Positions 13,099-27,337 of a stretch of DNA of 64,000 bases are shown here, one piece after another (the stretch's first letter is position 1; each line of letters starts with the position of its first letter). The stretch spans positions 248,001 through 312,000 of the forward strand of contig NZ_JOEZ01000012.1 of NCBI RefSeq assembly GCF_000721175.1, read 5' to 3'. Origin of the DNA: Streptomyces anulatus (GTDB lineage: Bacteria; Actinomycetota; Actinomycetes; Streptomycetales; Streptomycetaceae). The notes under the pieces are model-generated. The model was not told the origin of the DNA, ran no database searches, and worked only from the letters and a program-made list of their open reading frames with translations. Made by a program: the position numbers and the translations under genes.

Positions 13099-14184
13099 TC
13101 AGCCGATCTCGGCGCCGTAGGCGGCCAGTGCCTCTGGAACCGGCTGGAAGAAGGTCGTGCCGCCCGAGGAGCAGTCGCCGCTGCCGCCCGAGGTCAGGCC
13201 GAGCGCGGTGTCGCCCGCGAAGAGGGCGCCGCCGCTGTCGCCCGGCTCGGCGCAGACCGTCGTCTGGATGAGGCCGTTGACGATGTCGCCGTTGCCGTAG
13301 TTGACCGTGGCGTCCAGCGCGGTGACCTCACCGTCGTGCACCTGGGTGGTGGAGCCGCTGCGGGTGACCGCCTGGCCGACCGTCGCGTCGCCCGCCTGGG
13401 TGATCGCCTGGGTGGAGCCGTCGTACAGGTCGACCTCGCTCGGGTGCGCGATGTCCGACGTGTACTTGACCAGGCCGTAGTCGTTCTCCGGGAAGCTGGA
13501 GCCCTCGTTCGCCCCGATCTCCGAGCCGCCCTGGGTGTCCGACCAGCTGGTGACCGACTCGGTGCAGTGGCCCGCGGTCAGGAAGTACGGCTCACCGTCC
13601 TTGACCACGTTGAAGCCGAGCGAACAGCGGGAGCCGGATCCCCAGATCGCGTCGCCGCCCGCGATCAGCGGCTTGAACTCGCCGGCCGTCTTGTTGAGTT
13701 CGGCCGTGCCGCCGAGACCCTCGACCACGGCCGAGAGCTTCTTCCAGGCCGCGCCGTCGACCGTGCTGTCGGCGGTGACGAGCACCTTGTTGCTCACCGG
13801 GTCGACCGCCCAGGAGGTGCCCGGGATGGTCGCCTTGTCGGTGAGGGTCTGCCGCGCCGACTTCAGCTCGGCGAGGGAGTTCTCCACCATTCTGGCCTTG
13901 CCGCCCGCCTGGCGGACCTGTTCGGCGCCGGCCTCGTCGACGACGTTCACGACGAGGGCCTTCGCCGTGCTGTCGTAGTACGAGCCTGCCGCGTCCGCGC
14001 CCAGATCACGGTCGAGAACGGTGGCCAGCTTTCCGGCCGCGTCCGCGCTGAGGGTCTTGGCCGTGAACTCCGGCACATCGTCACTGGCGTTCGCAGTCTG
14101 GAACGTGAATCCCGCTGCGACCAGCGCGACGACGGCCGAGCCGGCCAGCGTCGCGCGCTTCTTGGATATGCGTCGATGCTTCAA
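13099..14184 (-). CDS. sprD: secreted chymotrypsin-like serine protease, streptogrisin D type
   Basis: This 361-residue prepro-protease belongs to family S1. A signal peptide is followed by an alpha-lytic-type prodomain (about residues 35-170), then the mature enzyme starting [15 protein letters not shown]. Catalytic residues sit in FLTAGHC (His), [10 protein letters not shown] (Asp) and EPGDSGGAL (Ser). I chose a TTG start because AGGAGGTCGAAG precedes it directly and a short basic signal peptide follows. The frame is open to 14307, and the S. griseus SGPD precursor as I remember it is annotated with that longer N-terminus. The sequence otherwise agrees closely with SGPD. It acts extracellularly in protein degradation. 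Confidence 0.88.
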
Positions 14185-14602
14185 CTTCGACCTCCTGTGG
14201 GGCCGTGCACGGAGCAAGTGGGGTGCTCGTACACGGAGGATGGGGCGCCCACTATTCCGAGGCCGGGAAACGCACACAAGGCCGACTTCCAGACGTGCAC
14301 ACGACACAGACGCTTCGCACGCGAGGTGTTCACCTACCCCGGGTCATGCCACGTCGGTTCCGTTCGCGAACACCCGGTGCAACCGTCGGCCGCCCCTGGG
14401 TGAGGACTAGGCCTGTCCGGTTTTCGCCCCTGCCGGTCCGGATGTTGTGCCCACCCGTCCGGATGCCGACGGAAATCGTCCACCGGGAGCCTCCCAGGAC
14501 CTTCACAGTTCCTGTCGCCGAACTGTCCCCGTAACGCCTCTGATGGGTCATCATCGAAAAGGCGGCACACGCCCGCCGGGTGGCCGAGCGGAGGAGGCAC
14601 GG
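14185..14602. other. 418-bp divergent intergenic region
   Basis: The region lies between the 5' ends of the streptogrisin gene and the alpha/beta hydrolase gene. Codons 14185-14307 could extend the protease N-terminus if an upstream start is used. Otherwise I see no gene; both promoters should lie here, but I cannot place them with confidence. Confidence 0.4.
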
Positions 14603-15514
14603 GTGCGCAATCGGGTGCTCGCGGCGGACGGGCGGCATCTGATGGTGGAGCGGATGGGGGACCCGCGGGGAAGACCGGTCTTCCTCCTCCACGGCACTCC
14701 GGGCAGCAGGCTCGGGCCCGCTCCCCGCGGCATGGTGCTGTACCAGCGCCATACGCAGCTGATCACCTACGACCGCCCGGGGTACGGCTGCAGCGACCGG
14801 CACGAGGGCCGCCGGGTCAGGGACGTCGCCGAGGACGTCCGGGCCATCGCCGACTCGTTGGGCCTCGACCGGTTCGCCGTGGTGGGCCGCTCCGGCGGGG
14901 CCCCGCACGCCCTGGCCTGCGCGGCGCTGATGCCGGAACGGATCACCCGGACCGCGGCTCTGGTCAGTCTCGCGCCCCCGGACGCGGCCGGTCTCGACTG
15001 GTTCGACGGCATGACCGCGTCCAACGTACTCGCGTACTCCACGGCGGCGGACGACCCGGACAGCCTGGCGGAGTCCTTCATCGTCCGCTCCGCGCAGATC
15101 CGGCGGGACCCGGTCAGGCTCCTGGACGATCTGCGCCGGGAGCTGACCGACTCCGACCGGGTGGTGGTCAACGACGCGGGGATCCGGACCATGCTGCTGC
15201 GCAACTACAGCGAAGGGCTGCGCGCCTCGGCCTACGGCTGGATCGACGACGCCATCGCGTTCTGCAGCCCCTGGGGGTTCGAGCCGGCCCGGATCACCGG
15301 GGAGGTGCTGCTCTGGCACGGGGTGAAGGACGTCTTCGCCCCGGTCGGCCACTCCCGCTGGCTGGCCGGGCAGATCCCGGGCGCCACCACCGTACTGGAA
15401 CCGAAGGCAGCCCACTTCGACGCGTTCCCCATGCTCCCCCGCGTCCTCGACTGGCTGCTGGACGAGCGGGAGCACCCGGACCGGACGCTGCCGACCTCCG
15501 TGCCGGGAGGGTGA
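14603..15514 (+). CDS. alpha/beta-hydrolase fold protein
   Basis: The 303-residue cytoplasmic hydrolase has the oxyanion HGTPGSR, then YDRPGYGCSDRHEGRRV, the nucleophile elbow VVGRSGGAPHALACA (Ser in GRSGG), an acidic residue near LLWHGVKDVFAPVGHS and a late His in EPKAAHFDAFPML. This is the layout of the esterase/epoxide hydrolase/prolyl aminopeptidase branch; the substrate is not predictable. The start is a GTG preceded by GAGGAGGCACGG. The ATG-started extension to 14447 lacks coding character. Its stop codon sits in the loop of a terminator hairpin, and the gene is convergent with fxsT. Confidence 0.82.
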   Translation: MRNRVLAADGRHLMVERMGDPRGRPVFLLHGTPGSRLGPAPRGMVLYQRHTQLITYDRPGYGCSDRHEGRRVRDVAEDVRAIADSLGLDRFAVVGRSGGAPHALACAALMPERITRTAALVSLAPPDAAGLDWFDGMTASNVLAYSTAADDPDSLAESFIVRSAQIRRDPVRLLDDLRRELTDSDRVVVNDAGIRTMLLRNYSEGLRASAYGWIDDAIAFCSPWGFEPARITGEVLLWHGVKDVFAPVGHSRWLAGQIPGATTVLEPKAAHFDAFPMLPRVLDWLLDEREHPDRTLPTSVPGG

Positions 15515-15527
15515 GCCCTCCCGGCAC
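15500..15527. terminator. terminator hairpin containing the hydrolase stop codon in its loop
   Basis: GTGCCGGGAGGG and CCCTCCCGGCAC form a perfect 12-base stem around the loop TGAG. The TGA of the loop is the stop codon of the upstream hydrolase. The convergent fxsT gene ends 7 bases further on, so one hairpin probably serves both. Confidence 0.7.
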
Positions 15528-15533
15528 GGACGG

Positions 15534-18500
15534 TCACACCGACATCGGCTCCAGCTCCCGCCGGAACCGTTCCTCGGTCCGGGCGACCCGCGCCAGCGGG
15601 TGGTCGTCACCGAGCTGGCGCGACAGCTCCACGACGATCTCCGCCCGCAACTGCGCCGCCTCGTCCTCCCGCCCCAAGGCGTCGAGCGTGACCGCCATGT
15701 TCGAGGTCATGGCCAGGGTCTCCGGGTGGTGCGCCCCGAGCGCCCCGCGCATCTGCGCGGACAGCCGCTTCTCGGTCTCCAGCACGATGTCCAGCTCCCC
15801 CCGGTCCGCCGTCGCGCTGGCCAGGTTCATCACGCAGAACAAGGTGCTCGGGTGCTCGCGGCCGAACGTCTCCCGCATGGAGGCGACGACCAGCTCCAGC
15901 ACCCGCTCCGCCCGTTCGGGCTCCCCGGCCCCCGTCAGGTAGACGCCGAGGTTGTTCTGTGCCGCCAGGGTGTACGGGTGCTTCTCCCCCGGCACCTTCA
16001 TGTACTGGTCGACGACCTCCTGCGCCGCGTCCCTCGCCTCCGCACTCTCGCCCGCCGCGAACAGGTCCGCGGCGAGGTTGAGGTCGCAGGCCAGCGAATC
16101 GGGGTTGGCGGTGGTGTACTTCGCCCGGTAGCGGGCGCGGGTCGCCACCGTGAGACGGCGGGCGTCCTCCAGCCGGCCCGCCCTGCGCAACGACACCGCG
16201 AGGCTCTTCGCGGCGCTCAGCGTGGCGGGGAAGCTGCGGCCCATCGTCTCCTTGAAGCTGTTGTACGTCGTGCTGAGCAGCCCCACCGAGTCCTCGTACC
16301 GGCCGACCTCCCGCAGGTCACGGGCGAGGTTCATGGCGGAGGACAGACTGTAGGGGTGTTCCGGTCCCAGGACCTGGGACCGGAGGTCGTAGACGTCCTG
16401 GTCGATCTCCCGGGCGCGGGCGTACTGGCCGACGCTGCGCAGGTTCAGGGCCAGGTTGTTGGCGGCGGCCAGGGTCCGGGGGTGGGAGTCGTGGAAGATC
16501 TGCCCGAACCCCTCGTGGGCCTCGGTCGCCATCTCGATCGCCCGGGCGTAGTCCCCCAGCAGGCCGAGGTCGATCGCCAGGCTGCTGGTGGTCATGTACG
16601 TGTGCGGGTGCTCGGGTCCCAGCACCGCCCGCTGCCGTTCCAGGGTGATCTCGTCGAGCTCCTTGGCCTCCACGTAACGCCCGCGGGTGCGCAGGATGTT
16701 GGAGAGGTGGAAGCAGAGGTACAGATACTGCAGGTCCCGCTCGCCGAGCTTCTCCTGCCAGATCTCCCGCAGCTCGTTGCCCAGCGCCCCCGCGGTCCTG
16801 ACGTCGCCGCGCTTCCAGAGGTAGCGGACCCGGTCGATCAGGAGCCTGCGGGTCTCGGGCTCCTTGCAGTTGCGGGCGTCGGAGGGGCCGAGGTGCGGCC
16901 AGATCGTCGCGAAGCGCGGCCAGGTCTCCGGGTTGTCGATCGGCTCGTCGTCGTCGGGCCGGGCGCCCGCGAGGATGCGGTGGACGACGTGCCGGGCCTC
17001 GCGCTGCTCCTCCTCGCTGAGCTGTGCCTTGATCACGGCCTGGACGAGGCGGTGCACCTGGATGGAGTTGGAGACCTGGTCGACCTTGGCGAGCGCGAAC
17101 CGGCCGATCTCCCGGATGACCCGGCCCAGCACCAGCTTCTCCTGGAGCGAGGAGTCGTACGGCTTCAGCGCGTCGATCATCTGCTTGCTGTAGAGGAGGT
17201 TCGCGGAGATCGGTTCCGGGGCGAAGAAGGCGCAGAGCTGGAGCAGCCGTACGGCGGCGGGCGAGCGCTCCTTGAGCCGGGCGATGGAGATGTTCCAGGT
17301 CGCGGCGACCGGTTCCGGGTAGCCGGCCGGCTGGTTGAGCGCGAGGACCTGGGGCGCCTGCTGGGCGAGCTGTTCGAGATAGGCGTCGATGGGGGTGGCG
17401 GTCTCCGCGATCCAGGCGGCGGCCTGCTCCACGGCGAGCGGCAGGTCGCCCACCGCGGTCGCCACCTGGTCGGCGTCCTCGTCGCTCAGCCCGGGGGCCC
17501 GGCGCTGGAGGTGCTCGATCGACTCCTCGCGGAGGAAGACGTCCACGGGCAGCGCGTCCCCGTGCTGCGACCAGCTCTGGTTGCGGGAGGTCACCAGGAT
17601 GTGGCCGGAGCCGCCCTGCGGGAAGTAGCGGCGCAGTTGCTCGGGGTCGTCCGCGTTGTCGAAGACCAGCAGCCAGCGGTCCGAGGGCACGCCGCGCCGC
17701 AACAGGTCGACGGCCTCCTGCGAGGCGGCCGCCATGTCGTCGCCGCCCTGGGCGCCGAGCCGGACGGCGAGTTCGGCGAGCGAGGCGACCACGTCGTCGG
17801 GCTGCTCGGACGATATCCACCAGACCAGGTCGTAGTCGGCCATGAAGCGGTGCACGTACTCCAGGGCCACCTGGGTCTTGCCGACGCCGCCGAGTCCGTA
17901 CAGGGTCTGCGGCTGCGGCAGGACGACGGCCAGGCCGCCGCCGAGCTGGTCGCGCATCCGCTCCAGGACGAGCGAGCGGCCGGTGAAGCCGGGGTTGCGG
18001 GGCGGCGCGTTCCAGATCCTCGGCACGGTGCCGGGGAAGCGGGGCCCGGGCGACACCCCGTCGGCCACCTGCACCGGGCGGTCCAGGGCCCGCATCACGG
18101 CGGTGGTGGCGTGCACCTCGTCCAGCCGGAAGAGGTCGACCGGGTTGCGGTCGATGTACGGGGCGCTCAGGCGTACGTCCCCGACCCGCAGGGGGACCAG
18201 CCGGCGCCGGCCGCTGCCGATGGCCTCGGCGGCGGTGCGTTCCCACAGTTCGACCGCGCGCTGCGACTTCAGGTACGCGCTGGAGAGCAGCACCACGGTG
18301 CGCGCGGCGCTCGAAGCGGTGGCGTCGGCGTCCTCCTGCGGGGGGTGTCCGGCGGAGACGTCGCGCGGAACCACCCGGAAGCCGGCCCGGGTGAGGATCG
18401 ACTCGAGCCAGTCGGCCCACATCCGGTTCTCCGCCACATAGCTGAGGTGGAGGTCGGCGGGCAGGGCGGGCCTGCGCCGGGTGAAGGCGTCGCGGATCCG

Positions 18501-19469
18501 CAGGCGGACCTCTTCGCCGATCGGGGGCATCGAGGTGATCTCCCGGTCGGTGATGACCGCGGTGAGACGTTCGAAGGCGGAGAGCAGCGAGTTGCTGAGT
18601 CCGGCCTCGTCGCCGAAGGTGGCGAGCGTCTCCTCGTAGGCGTAGTAGGGGCGGTAGGGGATCTCCACCGCGCCCCAGTAGGCGGTGAGTTCGTCGCCGG
18701 ACAGGTCGCGGGGCAGCCGGTCGAACTTGAGCCGGGCCAGCGCCCGCCCGGCGTCCGCCTTCTCCTTCTCGCCCTCGTCGATGCGCATCGGGACGGGGTA
18801 GAGGGCGATGGGGCGGCCGGTGTTGCGCTCCGCGATCTGGCGGGCGACGGAGGCCGCGCCGTCGATGGACTGGTCGCTGAGGGTGAAGCAGTCGACGAGG
18901 ACGTCCGGGAGGTGGACGGTGCAGATGTCGGCAATGTCGCTGAGGCCGGTCCGGCTGTCGATGAGGACGTAGTCGTAGTTGGCCTTCATGTCGTCGCGCA
19001 GCGCGTCGAAGAAGTGGCCGCCGCCGAACCGGTCGTAGAAGTTGTCCCAGTCGAAGGTGGAGACGGTCGCGGAGTATTCGCGGTTCTGCCGTCCGGCGGA
19101 GACGAAGTCGAGCGTGCCGCCCTGCGGGAACTCCCAGCCGAGCGACTCCGGGGTCAGCGACACGGCGTGCGGCTGGATGCGGGCGTAGTCGCGGTGCCAG
19201 TCCTCGGCGCGCTGGGCGGGGCTGGTCGCGGCCCAGGCGTACTCGGTGATCAGGTCGATCACGCCGGTGGTGGCGCCGAGCGTGGCCGGGTCGAGGAAGG
19301 GGTGGAAGAACCGGTGCAGCCCGGGGGCCTCCAGGTCCCAGTCGACGGCCAGCACCCGCTTGCCGTTGGCCGCGAGGATCCAGGCGGTGTTGGCGAGCGC
19401 CATGGTGCGCCCCGTGCCGCCCTTGTACGAGTAGAAGGTGACGATGCGCCCGTCACGACCGGCACTCAT
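15534..19469 (-). CDS. fxsT: FxSxx-COOH system NLR-like protein FxsT (ParA-like ATPase, TIR, NB-ARC, TPR)
   Basis: This is a 1311-residue multidomain protein. An N-terminal ParA/MinD-like ATPase carries a deviant Walker A (SYKGGTGRTMALAN, residues 14-27) and YDYVLIDSRTG. A TIR-like domain begins near residue 345 (ADLHLSYVAENRMWADWLES, then TVVLLSSAYLKS). An NB-ARC module with TLYGLGGVGKTQVALEYV and WLLVFDNADDPEQL covers about 490-780, and TPR repeats run to the end (PHTYMTTSSLAIDLGLLGDY, PYTLAAQNNLGVYLTGAGEP and others). The architecture is that of an NLR-type sensor. Its ATG overlaps the fxsC stop as ATGA with GGAGGA upstream, so it is the last gene of a coupled operon. Its function is not established; I infer ligand-triggered signalling. 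Confidence 0.88.
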   Translation of the reverse strand: MSAGRDGRIVTFYSYKGGTGRTMALANTAWILAANGKRVLAVDWDLEAPGLHRFFHPFLDPATLGATTGVIDLITEYAWAATSPAQRAEDWHRDYARIQPHAVSLTPESLGWEFPQGGTLDFVSAGRQNREYSATVSTFDWDNFYDRFGGGHFFDALRDDMKANYDYVLIDSRTGLSDIADICTVHLPDVLVDCFTLSDQSIDGAASVARQIAERNTGRPIALYPVPMRIDEGEKEKADAGRALARLKFDRLPRDLSGDELTAYWGAVEIPYRPYYAYEETLATFGDEAGLSNSLLSAFERLTAVITDREITSMPPIGEEVRLRIRDAFTRRRPALPADLHLSYVAENRMWADWLESILTRAGFRVVPRDVSAGHPPQEDADATASSAARTVVLLSSAYLKSQRAVELWERTAAEAIGSGRRRLVPLRVGDVRLSAPYIDRNPVDLFRLDEVHATTAVMRALDRPVQVADGVSPGPRFPGTVPRIWNAPPRNPGFTGRSLVLERMRDQLGGGLAVVLPQPQTLYGLGGVGKTQVALEYVHRFMADYDLVWWISSEQPDDVVASLAELAVRLGAQGGDDMAAASQEAVDLLRRGVPSDRWLLVFDNADDPEQLRRYFPQGGSGHILVTSRNQSWSQHGDALPVDVFLREESIEHLQRRAPGLSDEDADQVATAVGDLPLAVEQAAAWIAETATPIDAYLEQLAQQAPQVLALNQPAGYPEPVAATWNISIARLKERSPAAVRLLQLCAFFAPEPISANLLYSKQMIDALKPYDSSLQEKLVLGRVIREIGRFALAKVDQVSNSIQVHRLVQAVIKAQLSEEEQREARHVVHRILAGARPDDDEPIDNPETWPRFATIWPHLGPSDARNCKEPETRRLLIDRVRYLWKRGDVRTAGALGNELREIWQEKLGERDLQYLYLCFHLSNILRTRGRYVEAKELDEITLERQRAVLGPEHPHTYMTTSSLAIDLGLLGDYARAIEMATEAHEGFGQIFHDSHPRTLAAANNLALNLRSVGQYARAREIDQDVYDLRSQVLGPEHPYSLSSAMNLARDLREVGRYEDSVGLLSTTYNSFKETMGRSFPATLSAAKSLAVSLRRAGRLEDARRLTVATRARYRAKYTTANPDSLACDLNLAADLFAAGESAEARDAAQEVVDQYMKVPGEKHPYTLAAQNNLGVYLTGAGEPERAERVLELVVASMRETFGREHPSTLFCVMNLASATADRGELDIVLETEKRLSAQMRGALGAHHPETLAMTSNMAVTLDALGREDEAAQLRAEIVVELSRQLGDDHPLARVARTEERFRRELEPMSV

Positions 19470-20806
19470 AGGTCCTCCGCTTCCGTCGCAGGGTCGTGCG
19501 GGTCGGGTATGTAGCTCGTACTGCCCATGGGGCCGGTGAGCCGGGTCCGCTCGCCGGAGCCGCCGCCGGAGCCGGGAGGGTAGGCCTTCGCGTGTTTGAG
19601 GTACTGCTGGGCGGCCACTTCGACCACCTGGGGCAGGAGTTGGCCGAACGCCTCCATGGTGGGCACTCCCTTCGCCGCGGCACGGCAGAGGGCCCGGCCC
19701 TGACCCATCTTGATCGGCATGGTCGCTTCGAGCTTCTCGATGAGCTCGGTCTCCGCCGCTCTGCTCTGGTGGTCGTCACGGCTCCACGGCACGACCATGG
19801 TCACCCAGGGCCGGTTCTCGGCGTCGAAGGCGGCGAGCCTGCGGCGGTGGTCCTCGTCCCTCAGGACCCAGCGGTCGACGAGCAGGATCTCGGGGGTGCT
19901 GGGCGGGGCCTTGCCGTCGTGCCGGTCCTCGTCGAACGAGGTGATGACGGCCTGGTAGTTGAGCGACCGGACCAGTTCCTCCGCCACATAGGCCAGGGGG
20001 CGGGCGGCGGCCGGGTAGTAGGGGTTCCAGTCCTGGGGGTGGTCGCCGTAGTGGTCGCTGTTGCGCCCCTCGGGCAGATCGTGCCGGGTGGGCGCCGCGA
20101 TGGTGATCTGCATCGGCCGGGGTGCGCCGACTCCGCTGCTGGGCGAGCCGAAGGCGCTGGGCGCGAGGCGGTAGTCGACCGGCCGGCCGGTGTCGATGCG
20201 GACCGAGTCGGCGACGCTGACGATGCGTTTGGCCAGTTCGTAGACGGCCCGTTCGTACTCCTCGGCGAAGAGCCGCAGCTTGATCAGGCCGTAGAGGCCG
20301 TCGCTGACGTACCGTTCCCCGAAGTCGCGGTGGTTGAACTGCAGTCGCTCGGCGGAGCCGGGCAGCTGGCTCGGCGGTACCGGCACCCAGAGCGCCGGGA
20401 CGATGGCCTCGGCCGGCTGGTTGGAGCGGGCCCGGTGGTGGATGGCCCGCTGTTCGAAGGCGTACCACTCCTTGCCGCACATCTCGCTGGCGAAGTAGCG
20501 GGGCGAGAACAGCGGCACGAAGACCCGGCAGGTGGCGAGGACGTCACCGAGCCGCTCCGACCAGCCCTCGCCGGAACGTATCTCCCGGTCCATGAATCCC
20601 GCGGGCGCGCCCGCGGGTAAGTCGGTCATGGCCATCACATGGCCGCAGAGATCCTGGAACAGCCGCTCGACCCACATATCGGGGTCCGTGCCGCCGCCGT
20701 ACCCCGGCGTGTGGGCGTAACTCAGAAAGAAATACGGCCGATGGCCCACCGCTCGCTGTTGCCCCGATGCGTGCACACGACCCCCGTCCTGTGTGAGCAC
20801 CCGCAT
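19466..20806 (-). CDS. fxsC: TIR-like protein FxsC of the FxSxx-COOH system
   Basis: About 446 residues. The N-terminal TIR-like domain begins RPYFFLSYAHTPGYG and continues with AGFMDREIRSGEGW and CRVFVPLFSPRYFASEMC, as in FxsC family proteins. The C-terminal half (ITIAAPTRHDLPEGRNSD, then VITSFDEDRHDGK and ILLVDRWVLRDEDH) looks like a second TIR/receiver-like fold. The true start is uncertain: ATG at 20806 has no clear ribosome site, and GTGs at 20776 and 20749 are alternatives. A TTA codon sits at 20620-20618 (Leu in AMTDLPAG), so translation should depend on the bldA tRNA. The gene lies between fxsB (76 bases away) and fxsT (4-base overlap). Confidence 0.85.
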   Translation of the reverse strand: MRVLTQDGGRVHASGQQRAVGHRPYFFLSYAHTPGYGGGTDPDMWVERLFQDLCGHVMAMTDLPAGAPAGFMDREIRSGEGWSERLGDVLATCRVFVPLFSPRYFASEMCGKEWYAFEQRAIHHRARSNQPAEAIVPALWVPVPPSQLPGSAERLQFNHRDFGERYVSDGLYGLIKLRLFAEEYERAVYELAKRIVSVADSVRIDTGRPVDYRLAPSAFGSPSSGVGAPRPMQITIAAPTRHDLPEGRNSDHYGDHPQDWNPYYPAAARPLAYVAEELVRSLNYQAVITSFDEDRHDGKAPPSTPEILLVDRWVLRDEDHRRRLAAFDAENRPWVTMVVPWSRDDHQSRAAETELIEKLEATMPIKMGQGRALCRAAAKGVPTMEAFGQLLPQVVEVAAQQYLKHAKAYPPGSGGGSGERTRLTGPMGSTSYIPDPHDPATEAEDL

Positions 20807-20881
20807 CCCGGAAAGGAGGAAGGGAGTGCAAGCGAACTCATCATTCCGGAGCGGACCGCTTTCCACCCCCCTGCCGTTCGG

Positions 20882-23242
20882 TCATTCGAACGTCACTTTC
20901 CGGTCAGACTCCAGGACGTTCGCCGCACGACCGGACGGCGGGACGTTCCTGCCCTGATTCTTCCCGGCCGCACTCCGTGTTCCGCTGATCTCCTTGCGGA
21001 CAGCGGTGATCAGCTGTTTTCCGTCGACCGTCACCTCCGCCGCGTTCTCGATCATGTCGAGTGCCTCCGGAACGCCTTCGAGGAAGCGTGGGTCGTAAAG
21101 CCCGAGCCCCGCCCGTTCGAATGTCTCCGCCAGCAGTCGGGAGAACGTCACGTGACCGCTCCCCCAAGGCGTCCGATGTTCCCAGGTACCGTCCAAGGCG
21201 TAAAGATCCGTCACTTCACCGAGCGCCCGCAGTTTCGCCCGGCGGAATCCGCTCAGCAGGCCGAGTGCCAGCTCCTTCCCGTCGGCGGTCTCCCCGACGC
21301 CGAGCGCGCCGTGTCCGTGCCGCCCTGGCTCGGCCGCGCCGGCGGCCAGCGGGGTCACCGTGGTGAGCGTCCGGGCCGCCTCGGCCGCCTGGTCGGGAAC
21401 GGCGTCGGCCAGCAGCGTCCAGGCCCCGGCGATCCGGTGCGCCCAGGCGTCGGCCCGCTCCGCCGCGAGCCGGCCGGTGGCAGGGATGTCGAAGCAGTCG
21501 CGCAAGGGATCGAGGTCGTCCAGCAGGAGGGCGGGGGCCGGCGCCTGCCGCAGGACGCGCACGGGCCGCCAGTGCGGGCCCCCGGGTCCCTCGCGTGGGA
21601 TACGCAGCTCCGCGCCGGGAGCACCGGGAGCGCCTGGAGCTCCAGGCGTGGCGTCCTGCCGCCGGACGAGGAATCCGTCGCCCGTGGCACGCACCACGGC
21701 CCCTCCCCGCTCCCCCGGGTCGCCGATGACCACGGTGCCGAGGGTGGGCAGATGCAGGCTTCCGTCCCGGTAGGCCACCGGCACGGGCAGGTCGAGTCCG
21801 GCCCGGACGGCGGCGGCGGCCACGGTCGCGGCGAGCCGTTCGGCGGCCGGCTCCGTCAGGCCCCGGCCTGCCTGGACGTCCTCCAGGGCGCCGACCAGCC
21901 AGGTGCGGGTGTAGGGGTGCGCGAGCACCGCGTCGAGCGCCTCGGCTCCCGGGGCGTCCGCCTCCACCGTCGCCGCGAGCCGCCAGGCGTCGTCCCAGAG
22001 CTCGCCGCCCTGTCCGTCGAGGGTGTCGTGGAGCACCGCGAGCAGGGTGCGGGTCAGGTCCTGGTGGGCGGCGCGCAGTTCGTCCGGCGCCCGGACGGCG
22101 GGCGACTCGGTGGCTGCGGCCGTCCGCTCCTCGATGCCCCGGATCAGGGCGGCCAGATCGGCGCAGTAGACCGACGGGTTGTCGAAGCCGCTGTCGGAGC
22201 CGTGCTCGGAGCGGTACCGGTGGGTGTAGAGCCCGCCGCCGCACGACCGCACGACCGGGCAGCGGCGGCAGGTCTCGCTGACTCCGGCCAGACCGAGCTG
22301 GCGCGCCTGCACACCGGGGTGGGCCGCGACCTCGTCGAAGGTGTTGCGGAAGACGTCGAACCCGGTGGCGGCCGCGCCCTCGTAGGCGCTCTTGAGCGAG
22401 TCGACCTGTTCCAGCTTCCCGTCGGTCTCGATGACGACGAGGTCGGTGGGGGCGAGGCCCAGGGACTCGGTGAGGCTGGGTCCGCCGTTCAGGCTGGAGA
22501 GCACCGAGGCGAACATCCGGACGGGCATGGGGCGGCCCTGTTCCGTCCAGCGGTCGAAGACCGTCAGGAGCCACTCGGCGTACGCGGTGGGGGATCCGTC
22601 CGGCCGTGCCGGCGGGTCGTCCCAGGTGGCGTGCGGCAGCAGGAAGTCGACGAGCGGGGGTTCGAGCCCGGCGAGGGCGTCGTGCACGGCCACCGGATCG
22701 TTGTGGATGTCGACCGTGCACAGCAGGCCGAGGTCCAGGTGGCGGTAGCGCTCCTCGCGGAGCAGTCCGACGGCTCGCATCACCATCGGGTGGCTGCTGC
22801 GTCCGTTGGCGAATCGGCGGTGGCGGTCGTTGGCCGCGCGGTCGCCGTCGAGCGAGATCCCTACCCGGACGTGGAACTCGTCGAACAGGTCGAGATAACG
22901 GGGGCTGAGCTGGACGCCGTTGGTGTGGATCCTGAGGTCCAGCTCAGCGATGCCGTTCAGGGACGAGCCGAGCTCCTCGCAGACCCGTCGCAGTCGCGCG
23001 GGCCCTGCCAGGAGCGGTTCCCCGCCGTGCAGGATCACTGTGACGGAGGGAAGCGCATGAGTCCTCGCATGCTCGGCCAGACGCCGGGCAGTCCAGGAAA
23101 TCGCTTCGTCAGAGATGGTTTTGGGGCGGGTCAGCCAGCTCTGATCTGCATGTTCGTAGACATAGCAGTGGTCGCACGCAAGATCACACCTGCTGTGCAC
23201 TTTGAGCACGAATTCACGGAAGGGGACCAGGGGTCCTGTCAT
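20882..23242 (-). CDS. fxsB: radical SAM/SPASM peptide maturase FxsB with inactivated HExxH extension (FxsBH form)
   Basis: The 786-residue enzyme has the radical SAM cluster motif CDLACDHC (Cys19, Cys23, Cys26). A SPASM region near 345-385 (CRRCPVVRSCGGGLY, later VYCADL) binds auxiliary Fe-S clusters. FxsB-family enzymes install a cyclophane-type crosslink in a peptide whose C-terminus reads FxSxx. Residues from about 410 to 750 form the extension that elsewhere is a HExxH peptide hydroxylase. Here the motif position reads GLLSGFRRAKLRALGE, with neither His nor Glu, so that domain should be catalytically dead. It ends near DRKVTFE. It starts 30 bases after fxsA, through a tiny overlapping frame. 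Confidence 0.92.
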   Translation of the reverse strand: MTGPLVPFREFVLKVHSRCDLACDHCYVYEHADQSWLTRPKTISDEAISWTARRLAEHARTHALPSVTVILHGGEPLLAGPARLRRVCEELGSSLNGIAELDLRIHTNGVQLSPRYLDLFDEFHVRVGISLDGDRAANDRHRRFANGRSSHPMVMRAVGLLREERYRHLDLGLLCTVDIHNDPVAVHDALAGLEPPLVDFLLPHATWDDPPARPDGSPTAYAEWLLTVFDRWTEQGRPMPVRMFASVLSSLNGGPSLTESLGLAPTDLVVIETDGKLEQVDSLKSAYEGAAATGFDVFRNTFDEVAAHPGVQARQLGLAGVSETCRRCPVVRSCGGGLYTHRYRSEHGSDSGFDNPSVYCADLAALIRGIEERTAAATESPAVRAPDELRAAHQDLTRTLLAVLHDTLDGQGGELWDDAWRLAATVEADAPGAEALDAVLAHPYTRTWLVGALEDVQAGRGLTEPAAERLAATVAAAAVRAGLDLPVPVAYRDGSLHLPTLGTVVIGDPGERGGAVVRATGDGFLVRRQDATPGAPGAPGAPGAELRIPREGPGGPHWRPVRVLRQAPAPALLLDDLDPLRDCFDIPATGRLAAERADAWAHRIAGAWTLLADAVPDQAAEAARTLTTVTPLAAGAAEPGRHGHGALGVGETADGKELALGLLSGFRRAKLRALGEVTDLYALDGTWEHRTPWGSGHVTFSRLLAETFERAGLGLYDPRFLEGVPEALDMIENAAEVTVDGKQLITAVRKEISGTRSAAGKNQGRNVPPSGRAANVLESDRKVTFE

Positions 23243-23250
23243 TCCGCCAT
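23239..23250 (-). other. three-codon frame (ATG GCG GAA TGA) overlapping the fxsB start
   Basis: AGGAG lies 8 bases before this ATG, ideal spacing. Its stop overlaps the fxsB ATG as ATGA. The fxsB ATG itself has an in-frame TAG just upstream and no well-placed ribosome site, so translation of fxsB may depend on re-initiation after this mini-frame. Confidence 0.4.
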
Positions 23251-23272
23251 TCTAGACACTCCTGACGCCGGC

Positions 23273-23488
23273 TCAGAGAGCCGAACTGAAAGTGGAGATC
23301 CGGGTGGACCGGGCCGTTGTCGAACCGATTGCACGGCTGAGCTTCCTGGCTGCCTCGGCGCTGCGGACGTCGGTCGCCGCGAGGGTCGTACGCGTCGTGC
23401 GGGTCTTCGCGGGGGCGAAGGCGGGGGTGGTTCCGTAGGTCTTCACGGCCGTCCTAGGGGGATCCTGAAGGGGTCTGTTTCCGGACAT
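23273..23488 (-). CDS. fxsA: FxsA-type precursor peptide ending in FxSxx
   Basis: The 71-residue peptide ends TRISTFSSAL; the last five residues (FSSAL) fit Phe-x-Ser-x-x-COOH, the substrate signature that gives the system its name. The leader (SGNRPLQDPPRTAVKTYGT) is polar and the body is rich in Thr, Arg and Ala, with DVRSAEAARKLSRAIGS as a probable helix. It sits first in the operon, directly before the maturase fxsB, as expected for a RiPP precursor. The start is uncertain: ATG 23488 was used, ATG 23515 would add nine residues, and neither has a good ribosome site. Phe67 and Ser69 are the predicted crosslink partners, inferred from the family. Confidence 0.8.
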   Translation of the reverse strand: MSGNRPLQDPPRTAVKTYGTTPAFAPAKTRTTRTTLAATDVRSAEAARKLSRAIGSTTARSTRISTFSSAL

Positions 23489-23813
23489 TGAAACGCTGCA
23501 CGGATTCCGCGTCATCACACGGCCCGGCACGCGCACTTTACTACCGCTGAGGCCCATCCACATGCCGGCGGACGAGCCTTCACACCGGGTTTCGAAAGTC
23601 GAATCACGCCTTCCGTCCGGCCGCTCGGGTGAGCGGGGGACGGGCGGCGGAATCGGCGGGCCGGAGAGCCGGCCGCTCTTTCGCCGGCCCTTGCAGGTGG
23701 AAGGCTTCCCGCCACCGGCGAAGCCATCAGCACAGGTGCCGGGCGGGCGCATCATGACGCGCCCGGCACGACCCCGGCCGTACGCGCCGGAACGCTTCGG
23801 CGGGGAGGGCGGT
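23489..23813. other. 325-bp intergenic region upstream of fxsA
   Basis: No gene is seen. It should hold the fxs promoter; a TAGTAA box at 23543-23538 (leftward) is the only candidate -10 and lacks a convincing -35. The distal part carries GC-rich hairpins, including the terminator noted separately. Confidence 0.4.
23736..23769 (-). terminator. hairpin downstream of the frameshifted gene
   Basis: GTGCCGGGCG and CGCCCGGCAC form a perfect 10-base stem about 45 bases past the stop of the gene to the right. It probably separates that gene from the fxs operon. Confidence 0.55.
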
Positions 23814-24411
23814 TCACTCGTTCACCGGTTCCGGGCCGGGCACGTTGTGTTCCGTCCGGGAGCCACGCATGCAGTCCAGGACGCGTTCGTGGCTGTCGCC
23901 CACGACGTCCGTGACCCTCACCCGGATGTGGAGCGCCTCGACCCGGTCGACGAACCGCTGCGAGAACACCCCCACCGGCACGGTGTCGTAGTTCCCGGTG
24001 CCGACCAGCGGACAGCCCGTCCCGAAGGCGATGAGCTGGTAGTCCCGCCCCACCGTGAGACCGTCCGCCGTCAGGGTGGCCACGACGTCCGGGACGGCGA
24101 CCCAGGGCGCCCTCGCCGCGCCGGACCCGCCGCAGCACCACGCGGCACTCCCAGCTCTCGATCACGGCGATGTGCTGGCCGCCGTTCTGTAGCCCCACGC
24201 GCCACGCGGGTTCTCCCTCGGCGAGCAGCCCCTCGCGCCAGGAGCCGCGCCAGCCGAGGTGGGGCCGGACCGTACGGGCGTACTGCGCCCTCGCCAGCAC
24301 GGCGCCGGCCGCCACGGCCGGCAGGCTCCCGAGCGCCTCCATGTCCAGCAGTTGCTGGCGCCGGGGCCAGTCGTCCCGGACGCCGGGCGAGACCACTGCG
24401 GGGTGCGTCAA
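23814..24411 (-). pseudogene. frameshifted gene between fxsA and the SLATT gene, function unknown
   Basis: A TTG start with GAGAGG eight bases upstream opens a frame (MTHPAVVSPGVRDDW, then LLDMEALGSLPAVAAGAVLA and AWRVGLQNGGQHIAVIESWE). Good coding character stops around residue 100, near 24110. From there the neighbouring frame continues as APWVAVPDVVATLTADGLTV, then YQLIAFGTGCPLVGTGNYD and VVGDSHERVLDCMRGS, to a stop at 23814. One base gained or lost in the run around 24105-24120 restores a single protein of about 198 residues. I do not recognise the family. It could be a decayed gene, a sequencing error or, less likely, a programmed frameshift. Confidence 0.55.
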
Positions 24412-24628
24412 CTCATATGCCTCTCAGTCCAGTTGGGTTACCTTGCCACAGCGTCGCCGGGCGAGGAAGAACGCCTGCGCGCGGAAGTGGCCGAACCCCG
24501 CCGTAGCAGCGGTCCGAGGAGCCGGGACGCTCTTGCCGCGTCCGGCCCTCCCCCCTACTCTCGTGGCCCCGGGCGGGGCAGGCGCGACGACCGGCCGGGT
24601 CAAACGACAACTGCAGACGGAGGCGACC

Positions 24629-25555
24629 ATGACGGCGTTGCCCGAGCCGCTGAGATCCATGGTCTTCAGGAACGACGACCTGCCGGCCCTGTTCCATCAC
24701 ACGGACGCGGTCGCCGTGGCGCGCCAGCGCGAGGCCGTGAACACCACCCGGGTGCAGCTGGCGCTGCTCGTGGCAGGCACCGTGCCCGCGGCGCTGCCCT
24801 GGCACGCCGAGGACGGTCCGGCGGCCCGGGCCCTGTACGGCGCCGCGGTGCTGGCCTACCTGGGGGTGCTCTTCGTGACCTTCCTGGCCTCCCAGCGCAA
24901 AGCAAAGTCACACTGGCAACTGAACCGCTCCGCCGCCGAGTTCATCAAGTCCAACTGCTGGCGTTACGCGGTCCACGGCGCGCCGTTCGACAGCGCGTCC
25001 GGGCATCCGGAGGCGCTGTTCGCCAATCGCCTGGAGGACGGCCTCCAGGAGTTGCGGAAGGTGGGCTGGGCCGATCCGCGCGAGGAACTGCCGGATTCCG
25101 GCGGCCTCATCACGGAATCCATGCGCGCGTTACGGAACAAGGCCTACACGGTCCGGAAGGAAACGTATGTACGGGACCGGCTCATCGAACAGCGGCGGTG
25201 GTACCGCAGACGCCAGCAGGCCTCCCGGCGCGGGGCGCTCCTGTGGTCGGGCGCCATTGTCGCGCTGACGCTCCCGGCGCTGGCGCTGAGCGTGTTCCAG
25301 ACCTTCGGGGTGGGCCGGTCGTTCGGCCTGACGGGGGCGCTGTCCGCGGCGGCGGCGGCCTGTCTCGCCTGGAACGAGATGCGCCGGCACCATCCGCTGA
25401 TCTCGGCGCACTCGCTGGTGGAGCAGGACCTGGAGTCGATGCAGGCCGCCATGGAGACGACCCTCACCGAGCGGCACTGGCCGGCGGCGGTGTTCGAGAC
25501 CGAGCGGATCGTGTCGCCCGAGCACACCGACTGGCTGGTCAGGCATCGCGTATGA
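24629..25555 (+). CDS. DUF4231/SLATT-type two-span membrane protein
   Basis: The 308-residue protein has an N-terminal pair of spans (VQLALLVAGTVPAALPW and ALYGAAVLAYLGVLFVTFLA). A cytoplasmic helical segment follows (LNRSAAEFIKSNCWRYAV), then a second pair (GALLWSGAIVALTLPALALS and LTGALSAAAAACLAWNEM) and a C-terminal helix. This is the DUF4231/SLATT layout, in which the membrane protein is predicted to form a pore opened by a nucleotide-sensing partner in conflict systems. An in-frame TTA codon lies at 25130 (Leu in MRALRNKAY), implying bldA-dependent expression. The ATG follows ACGGAGGCGACC. It is convergent with a SLOG gene 47 bases away. Confidence 0.78.
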   Translation: MTALPEPLRSMVFRNDDLPALFHHTDAVAVARQREAVNTTRVQLALLVAGTVPAALPWHAEDGPAARALYGAAVLAYLGVLFVTFLASQRKAKSHWQLNRSAAEFIKSNCWRYAVHGAPFDSASGHPEALFANRLEDGLQELRKVGWADPREELPDSGGLITESMRALRNKAYTVRKETYVRDRLIEQRRWYRRRQQASRRGALLWSGAIVALTLPALALSVFQTFGVGRSFGLTGALSAAAAACLAWNEMRRHHPLISAHSLVEQDLESMQAAMETTLTERHWPAAVFETERIVSPEHTDWLVRHRV

Positions 25556-25602
25556 GCCGTGCCGGGAGGGCTGAACCGGTCTCTTCCGGCAGGCGCTTCC
25601 GG

Positions 25603-26082
25603 TCAGCCGCGGAGCACTCCGTCGCGCCAGATCACGGTGACCGGGCGGCCCAGCGTGCGGGCGTACGTCACGATGTCGGCCGTGCCGCCGAGGCCCCGGG
25701 CCGGGAGGCCGTCCCAGACCGCGAGCAGCCGGTCGCAGTGGTCGGCGATGTAGGCGCCCGCCGCGTAGTAGGCCTCGTCGGTGGAGTGCGGGAAGCCGAG
25801 CCGGACCTCCTGCGCCGCGCGGGCCTTGAGCTTCCGGTAGCGGGCGAGGTCGGCGGCGTTCTCGAAGCAGGCCTCGTAGTCGCCGCTGGGGATCACGACG
25901 GTCAGTTCGGCGCCGCAGGCGAGGGCGAGGTCGGCGAAGAGCTGGTCGGCGCCGACGGCCAGGCTGGAGAGCGCCTGCGTCGCGCCGTCGAGGCCGCACA
26001 GCGCGGCCCGCAGGCCCGCGAGCACATGGGCCTCGGCCTCGGCGGGGATGGAGCGGTGACCGGTCACTCCGATGCGGTTCAC
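25603..26082 (-). CDS. SLOG-type Rossmann-fold nucleotide-sensor protein
   Basis: The 159-residue cytoplasmic protein starts NRIGVTGHRSIP, the glycine-rich first strand-loop of the SLOG superfamily (related to LOG/DprA and TRPM sensors). ALSSLAVGADQLFADLALACGAELTVVIP, CDRLLAVWDGLPARGLGGTADIVTYAR and RPVTVIWRD follow, the other nucleotide-facing loops. SLOG domains bind or process nucleotide-derived ligands and are often paired with SLATT membrane effectors. The start is a GTG with AGGGGG upstream. It is tail-to-tail with the SLATT gene rather than co-directional, so the pairing is an inference from adjacency. Confidence 0.75.
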   Translation of the reverse strand: MNRIGVTGHRSIPAEAEAHVLAGLRAALCGLDGATQALSSLAVGADQLFADLALACGAELTVVIPSGDYEACFENAADLARYRKLKARAAQEVRLGFPHSTDEAYYAAGAYIADHCDRLLAVWDGLPARGLGGTADIVTYARTLGRPVTVIWRDGVLRG

Positions 26083-26198
26083 GGACCAGCTACCCCCTGA
26101 TGCCAGCGGAGCGCGCCTCGGGGGCGGGACCGCCCCCGTCGCCCCGTCGCGACGCCCCGTCCTGGCGACATCCTCTCAAGAGCCCCGGGCGAGCGGGA

Positions 26199-26226
26199 GC
26201 CCCCGTCCGGAGTTCCGGACGGGGGC
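26199..26226 (-). terminator. terminator of the streptogrisin B gene
   Basis: GCCCCCGTCCGGA and its exact complement form a 13-base stem with a 2-base loop, beginning 44 bases past the protease stop. Confidence 0.8.
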
Positions 26227-26269
26227 ACGTATGTACGGACTGCTCCGTACCTGGCCGGGGCGGGACCGG

Positions 26270-27337
<1,068 letters not shown>

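Follow-up and report, generated by a model that had tools for sequence, protein, structure and literature searches.

What does an operon that modifies a small peptide do beside a nucleotide-binding leucine-rich repeat (NLR)-like protein carrying a TIR domain, and how far does the unit extend? The question is raised by a 64,000-nt stretch of Streptomyces anulatus DNA (contig NZ_JOEZ01000012.1, positions 248,001 to 312,000; hereafter the window), where an earlier inspection of the letters alone, the sequence-only reading, had placed a complete fxsABCT locus at 15534..23488. The operon is real, with all four genes found on the minus strand, but these limits are too narrow, since the conserved unit spans about 14,444-26,271 between two S1-protease genes. 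The whole cassette (14444..26271) holds genes for a SLOG-like protein, a SLATT membrane protein, FxsA, FxsB, FxsC, FxsT and an alpha/beta hydrolase, and by gene content it is one predicted unit, with an extent of ~11.8 kb because empty and partly deleted sites delimit it between the protease genes. As a whole it is best explained as a peptide-linked NLR-TIR-SLOG-SLATT circuit, an explanation to which we give somewhat less than an even chance. Gene content, limits, co-occurrence, residue conservation and model folds were taken from sequence, and the signalling roles are what we infer.

The fxsABCT genes are tightly packed, with gaps of 30 nt between fxsA and fxsB and 15 nt between fxsB and fxsC, and a 4-nt overlap of fxsC and fxsT. 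Their products were compared with NCBIfam profiles, and the scores were set against the curated cut-offs. FxsB (786 aa, 20882..23242, minus strand) is a predicted radical SAM/SPASM cyclophane maturase that reaches 603 bits for TIGR04269 (cut-off 370), and 510 bits for NF040587 (cut-off 225), the profile for a lost HExxH. This maturase would presumably install a Phe-x-Ser cyclophane on the C-terminus of FxsA, a chemistry that we assume from the family name. The extension of FxsB was also considered as a leader peptidase and rejected; the HExxH motif is absent in the FxsB of the window, and NCBIfam describes the extension as an inactivated beta-hydroxylase. FxsC (466 aa, 19466..20866, minus strand) has a GTG start, with an alternative ATG at 20806, and consists of a TIR domain with a conserved Glu (E133) and a second alpha/beta domain; the profiles for its N- and C-terminal domains, NF040588 and TIGR04276, give 238 bits (cut-off 130) and 262 bits (cut-off 55). 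FxsT (1311 aa, 15534..19469, minus strand) contains a degenerate ParA domain, a degenerate TIR domain, NB-ARC, DUF7779 and a TPR array, and scores 1050 bits for NF040586 (cut-off 300) and 151 for AAA_KGGVGR (cut-off 90). The FxsA precursor (71 aa, 23273..23488, minus strand), assigned from sequence, motif and position, ends in TFSSAL, and scores 17.4 bits for TIGR04268, which is under the cut-off of 28 bits that serves as an annotation threshold. It is classed as a divergent member, and the FxsABCT label is kept because its F-S-S-A-L motif and its position upstream of fxsB are as in the family.

The sequence-only reading thus described the core correctly, and overlooked three genes that give a concrete candidate output. 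The SLOG-like protein (159 aa, 25603..26082, minus strand) has a YpsA-type fold and is covered by one SLOG fold. The SLATT protein (308 aa, 24629..25555, plus strand), encoded divergently from fxsA, is a membrane protein with a SLATT_3 and a SLATT_1 domain, all matches being above the cut-off: PF18184 with 124 bits and PF18181 with 115 bits, both from a longer version of the frame, NF033610 with 181 bits and NF033634 with 96 bits. The alpha/beta hydrolase (14603..15514, plus strand; PF00561, 66 bits) is convergent with fxsT, and Ser, Asp and His of its triad are each kept in 49 of 50 rows.

With the flanking DUF1684 gene (c7) as anchor, the equivalent site was retrieved from 13 FxsC-negative genomes. 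At two such sites, L105 and L106, the S1-protease genes are adjacent, and 172 and 181 bp respectively stand in place of 14,444-26,271 of the window; L109, on a shorter match, resembles them with 346 bp. In L107 and L110 the cassette site holds about 1.3 kb of different sequence, L100 is without both protease genes and without the cassette, the two sides of the site are ~13 kb apart in L101, and L102, L103, L104 and L108 match on the c7 side only. In L098, where the hydrolase is split into three pieces, a deletion scar joins SLOG sequence in one 110-aa frame to the last ~40 residues of FxsT. L092 comes from an FxsC-positive genome; SLOG and SLATT are retained at the site, while fxsA, fxsB, fxsC, fxsT and the hydrolase have been lost from it, and another fxs locus of this genome (L063) does not carry the SLOG-SLATT pair. 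L099 retains FxsT without FxsA, FxsB, FxsC, SLOG or hydrolase, a single case which argues that FxsT may be tolerated without FxsC, SLOG and peptide at one site. Another single case, L042, with fxsA, fxsB and the hydrolase and without fxsC, fxsT, SLOG and SLATT, argues that an A-B-hydrolase set may persist without the TIR and SLATT parts.

FxsC scores above the cut-off in 3 genomes of the 296 sampled across the phylum, and in 45 of 121 Streptomyces genomes (its own genome included; two matches below the cut-off were counted as negative). With identity thresholds of at least 43% for SLATT and at least 52% for SLOG in the latter sample, the same 34 genomes have an ortholog of SLATT and one of SLOG, and each of these genomes is FxsC-positive, or 34/45 FxsC-positive against 0/76 FxsC-negative genomes (Fisher p 8e-21, relatedness not corrected for). 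The SLATT gene is located at the fxs locus in 33 of the 34, with G366 (L092) as the exception, and SLOG lies ~11 kb away from SLATT in G387. Not counted as orthologs were SLATT matches of 24-36% identity in five further genomes, of which four are FxsC-negative, SLOG matches of at most 46% identity in many other genomes, and a short SLOG fragment in G005 (82% over 61 residues).

Sixty loci, most of ~20 kb, were fetched from related genomes and their neighbouring genes clustered. The long-FxsB set comprises L026-L070 and the window (46 loci), and 43 of the 46 hold fxsB, fxsC and fxsT; two long-type FxsB matches were left out of the counts, namely G343 with a stop inside fxsB and G338:C1149 on a cut contig. 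The hydrolase is located beside fxs in 42 of the 43 (exception L026) and in all six loci of family f3, SLATT is present at 31 and the SLOG-like protein at 30 of the 43. A second set of 80 named loci represents the best of 397 relatives, is therefore biased toward near ones, and partly overlaps the 121-genome sample; six of these loci are without fxsB, fxsC or fxsT, through cut contigs or FxsC fusions, and three more have less than 3 kb upstream. Among the informative B-C-T loci of that set, SLATT and SLOG are present in 71/71, the hydrolase in 70/71 and an AAC(3)-like acetyltransferase in 19/71. L123, from the laboratory strain S. griseus NCTC13033, carries the genes for SLOG, SLATT, FxsB, FxsC, FxsT and the hydrolase. 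In the long set this acetyltransferase is encoded between fxsB and fxsC in 25 of 43 loci and elsewhere in two more, and it is missing from the window; it matches PF02522 in L052 and forms one frame with fxsC in L048. Its presence inside fxs operons points to a possible acetylation of the peptide or of a metabolite.

The HExxH motif of FxsB and the SLATT gene show a pattern of their own: all 11 loci with an intact motif (L026, L057, L058, L063, L070 and L071-L076) are without an orthologous SLATT, and in all 31 loci with an orthologous SLATT the motif is lost. A locus with a short FxsB, L077, carries the same SLOG-SLATT pair, which suggests module exchange between fxs types. SLATT genes of other kinds were sought with PF14015 in 24 genomes, picked for an fxs locus without the SLOG-SLATT pair or for an odd fxs locus. 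The search gave 18 matches, of which six are at fxs genes and four of those six are of the window type; two other SLATT genes beside fxs genes, in L070 and L099, are not recognized by the profile of the window-type SLATT. In L070, which belongs to a different family and has an FxsB with intact HExxH, a 359-aa SLATT frame immediately precedes fxsA-fxsB; a SLATT protein of 198 aa adjoins the orphan FxsT of L099. No SLOG was found near either of these SLATT genes.

The sequence-only reading had counted two TIR proteins, and both TIR domains are present, but they are not equivalent. The presumed catalytic Glu of the FxsC TIR domain is present in 52 of 55 alignment rows, whereas only 2 of 55 non-gap rows of FxsT have Glu at the corresponding column. 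The assignment relies on a TIR signature, by which we presume E133 to be the catalytic residue. The FxsT domain looks like a pseudo-TIR, judged from this column, and the suggestion that both TIR domains cleave nicotinamide adenine dinucleotide (NAD) does not hold where the presumed catalytic position is not Glu. In the ParA domain of FxsT the P-loop Lys is replaced by Arg in 56 of 56 non-gap rows, and the NB-ARC P-loop and the TPR array are intact; the degenerate ParA and TIR domains probably serve as docking surfaces. FxsC is fused to SAV_2336 N-terminal domains in L086, L088 and L090, and in L086 also to TPRs of the FxsT type.

Precursors were scanned for the pattern [FY]-x-[SA]-x-[LIVFM] at the end of a frame, with a wide distance permitted, so that a few matches may be due to chance. 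An FxsA-type C-terminus in a frame near fxsB is found in 119 of 128 scanned loci, window included; all 119 carry F and none Y, and FNSAL, FSSAL and FNSSL together make up 99 of the 119. Among the nine loci without a match, L033 and L038 have one additional C-terminal Gly, L175, L181 and L183 are on cut contigs, and the precursor of L182, where the fxsB frame begins far upstream, is seen in the intergenic alignment; no FxsA-type frame was detected near fxsB in L051, L068 and L069. The near-fixed sequence of the pentapeptide suggests that the FxsA tail is recognized by a conserved partner inside the cell.

The sequence-only reading took the system as its best candidate for an undescribed one, which does not hold for the core, described by NCBIfam and by Kaur et al. 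2020 (PMC7159879); the extent of the larger cassette appears undescribed. The FxSxx-COOH system (TIGR04268, TIGR04269, NF040587, TIGR04276, NF040588, NF040586) shares FxsB, FxsC and FxsT above the cut-offs, but its named proteins do not include SLOG, SLATT and hydrolase, which form one unit with fxs here. In its passages on these peptides, PMC7159879 describes FxSxx peptides that occur together with a radical SAM enzyme and with an AP-ATPase bearing TIR and TPRs, mentions standalone versions with an inactive MinD/ParA-like domain, proposes a role as peptide toxin or signal, and associates related systems with bacteria whose development is complex. The standalone system likewise has a radical SAM enzyme, an FxSxx peptide and a TIR/ParA-AP-ATPase-TPR protein, while a separate FxsC TIR enzyme, SLOG, SLATT and hydrolase are unmentioned in section 24, and the passages on SLATT connect it to GAP1-N GTPase systems, unlike in the fxs cassette (PMC7159879). 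The VMAP-ternary type, as outlined in the same paper, has peptide, radical SAM enzyme and a separate TIR-AP-ATPase in common, and membership was rejected as a Pfam scan of the cassette proteins and of nine frames beside them showed no MoxR or vWA domain. Thoeris, in the account given in PMC10022894, pairs a TIR enzyme (ThsB) with a SLOG domain (in ThsA, SIR2-SLOG), and provides an experimental precedent for TIR-to-SLOG signalling; here SLOG is stand-alone, the output candidate is SLATT, and an NLR-like switch and a ribosomally synthesized and post-translationally modified peptide (RiPP) are added. The scanned cassette proteins contain no SIR2 domain and one SLOG fold takes up the 159 aa of the SLOG protein, and membership in Thoeris was rejected. 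A TIR-SLATT pairing has been predicted from phage neighbourhoods, where a TIR gene stands beside a two-transmembrane SLATT gene as it does here, sometimes with a metallopeptidase or helix-turn-helix gene, and where RiPP, NB-ARC and SLOG are unmentioned in the relevant part of the source (PMC9503650). Pore formation by SLATT on a nucleotide signal is a prediction in the literature. In the open-licence literature, covered largely at listing level, no link of FxSxx systems to SLOG or SLATT was found, and the literature searched gave no report on the function of FxSxx-COOH peptide systems.

A signalling or conflict circuit, as the sequence-only reading had it with the peptide as a possible ligand, antigen or safety signal, is still the best interpretation, although its core was known, its TIR proteins differ and part of its genes had been missed. 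FxsB, by its family assignment, would modify the C-terminus of FxsA with the cyclophane, and the modified tail might act as a fixed intracellular ligand that licenses or restrains FxsT. FxsT would be an NLR-like switch that gathers FxsC once activated, the trigger being perhaps a phage or a developmental cue, and the FxsC TIR domain with its presumed catalytic Glu could then make an NAD-derived nucleotide messenger. The SLOG protein would sense this nucleotide, and together with the two-domain SLATT protein might turn the signal into lost membrane integrity, growth arrest or cell death, and the hydrolase probably, if we may guess loosely, trims FxsA or resets the system. The chain in its specific form, with a fixed-sequence cyclophane peptide gating the NLR FxsT, then FxsC, an NAD-derived messenger, SLOG and a SLATT pore in a resistosome-like death circuit, is tentative, and we regard it as plausible rather than probable. 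A free-standing lethal FxsT restrained by the peptide fits poorly with L099, in which FxsT survives without fxsA, fxsB and fxsC at the site. FxSxx-COOH systems are common in Streptomyces, as the FxsC count indicates, and if the circuit is true it has a defined input (modified peptide and NLR), signal (TIR product), sensor (SLOG) and executor (SLATT), each step being testable, and it would join RiPP biosynthesis, bacterial NLR-like proteins and NAD-based second-messenger immunity, subjects that usually are kept apart.

In a rival reading FxsC and FxsT deplete NAD and so act without a messenger, or FxsC serves as an adaptor, and SLOG-SLATT runs in parallel or has a protective part instead of being the output of a TIR signal. 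In its favour, many complete fxs loci, namely 12 of 43 long loci and all six f3 loci, have no orthologous SLATT, and FxsC and FxsT must work without SLATT there. We consider this reading unlikely, as orthologous SLATT and SLOG were found in none of the 76 FxsC-negative genomes and SLATT genes from other lineages turn up repeatedly next to fxs genes. The same absence from FxsC-negative genomes argues against SLOG-SLATT as an independent pair that is merely carried along beside fxs, for which the retained pair in L092 after loss of fxsABCT and the fxs locus without the pair in L035 could be cited; the pair also holds its position in several unlike neighbourhoods, other SLATT genes stand beside fxs genes in L070 and L099, and independence is very improbable.

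The trigger is a separate matter. A checkpoint of development or of the cell envelope in multicellular actinobacteria, in which the same TIR-SLOG-SLATT output leads to programmed lysis or differentiation instead of immunity, shares its mechanism with the preferred circuit and differs in the trigger. The chromosomal setting is stable: one of the flanking core genes c7 and c10 accompanies fxs in 69 of the 80 named loci, and in 25 of the 43 long loci with fxsB, fxsC and fxsT. FxsC gave no match in 50,697 phage records, so that a phage-borne system was rejected, and among 72,556 plasmid records it matched only five, each with less than 70% identity; related systems are moreover tied to complex development in the passages cited above (PMC7159879). 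The patchy distribution (45/121) and the scars in L098, L092 and L099, however, are more in keeping with a conflict system that carries a cost than with an essential programme, and a checkpoint is a minority view that we nevertheless take seriously. FxsA might instead be a secreted toxin or signal peptide, with FxsT as sensor or immunity protein, in line with the toxin or signal suggested in PMC7159879, with acetyltransferases in 25/43 long loci that could finish a small molecule, and with the ABC-2 membrane protein and secreted-type proteases flanking the cassette. Such a secreted peptide is improbable, since its pentapeptide is almost fixed (99/119 in three forms), unlike a diversifying toxin, and no exporter or peptidase scores above the cut-off within the cassette.

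The streptogrisin-like S1 proteases that bracket the cassette (13102-14343 and 26273-27274) have an alpha-lytic prodomain and a trypsin domain; their genes, which are direct neighbours in the FxsC-negative L105, L106 and L109, perhaps mark a recombination point. A 115-aa frame between SLATT and fxsA (23817..24161, minus strand) is a shortened remnant of a protein, m18, with matches over about 240-260 aa in six inspected relatives. This is a likely membrane protein, encoded between SLATT and fxsA in some relatives, and its copy in L039 gave no Pfam match. When 43 intergenic regions between divergent SLATT and fxsA genes were aligned, a conserved stretch with the core AGTAAAGT emerged upstream of fxsA, matched to the window by eye at 23530..23549 (minus strand); TTGC and GCAA half-sites surround it in the consensus, and it might be a promoter or operator.
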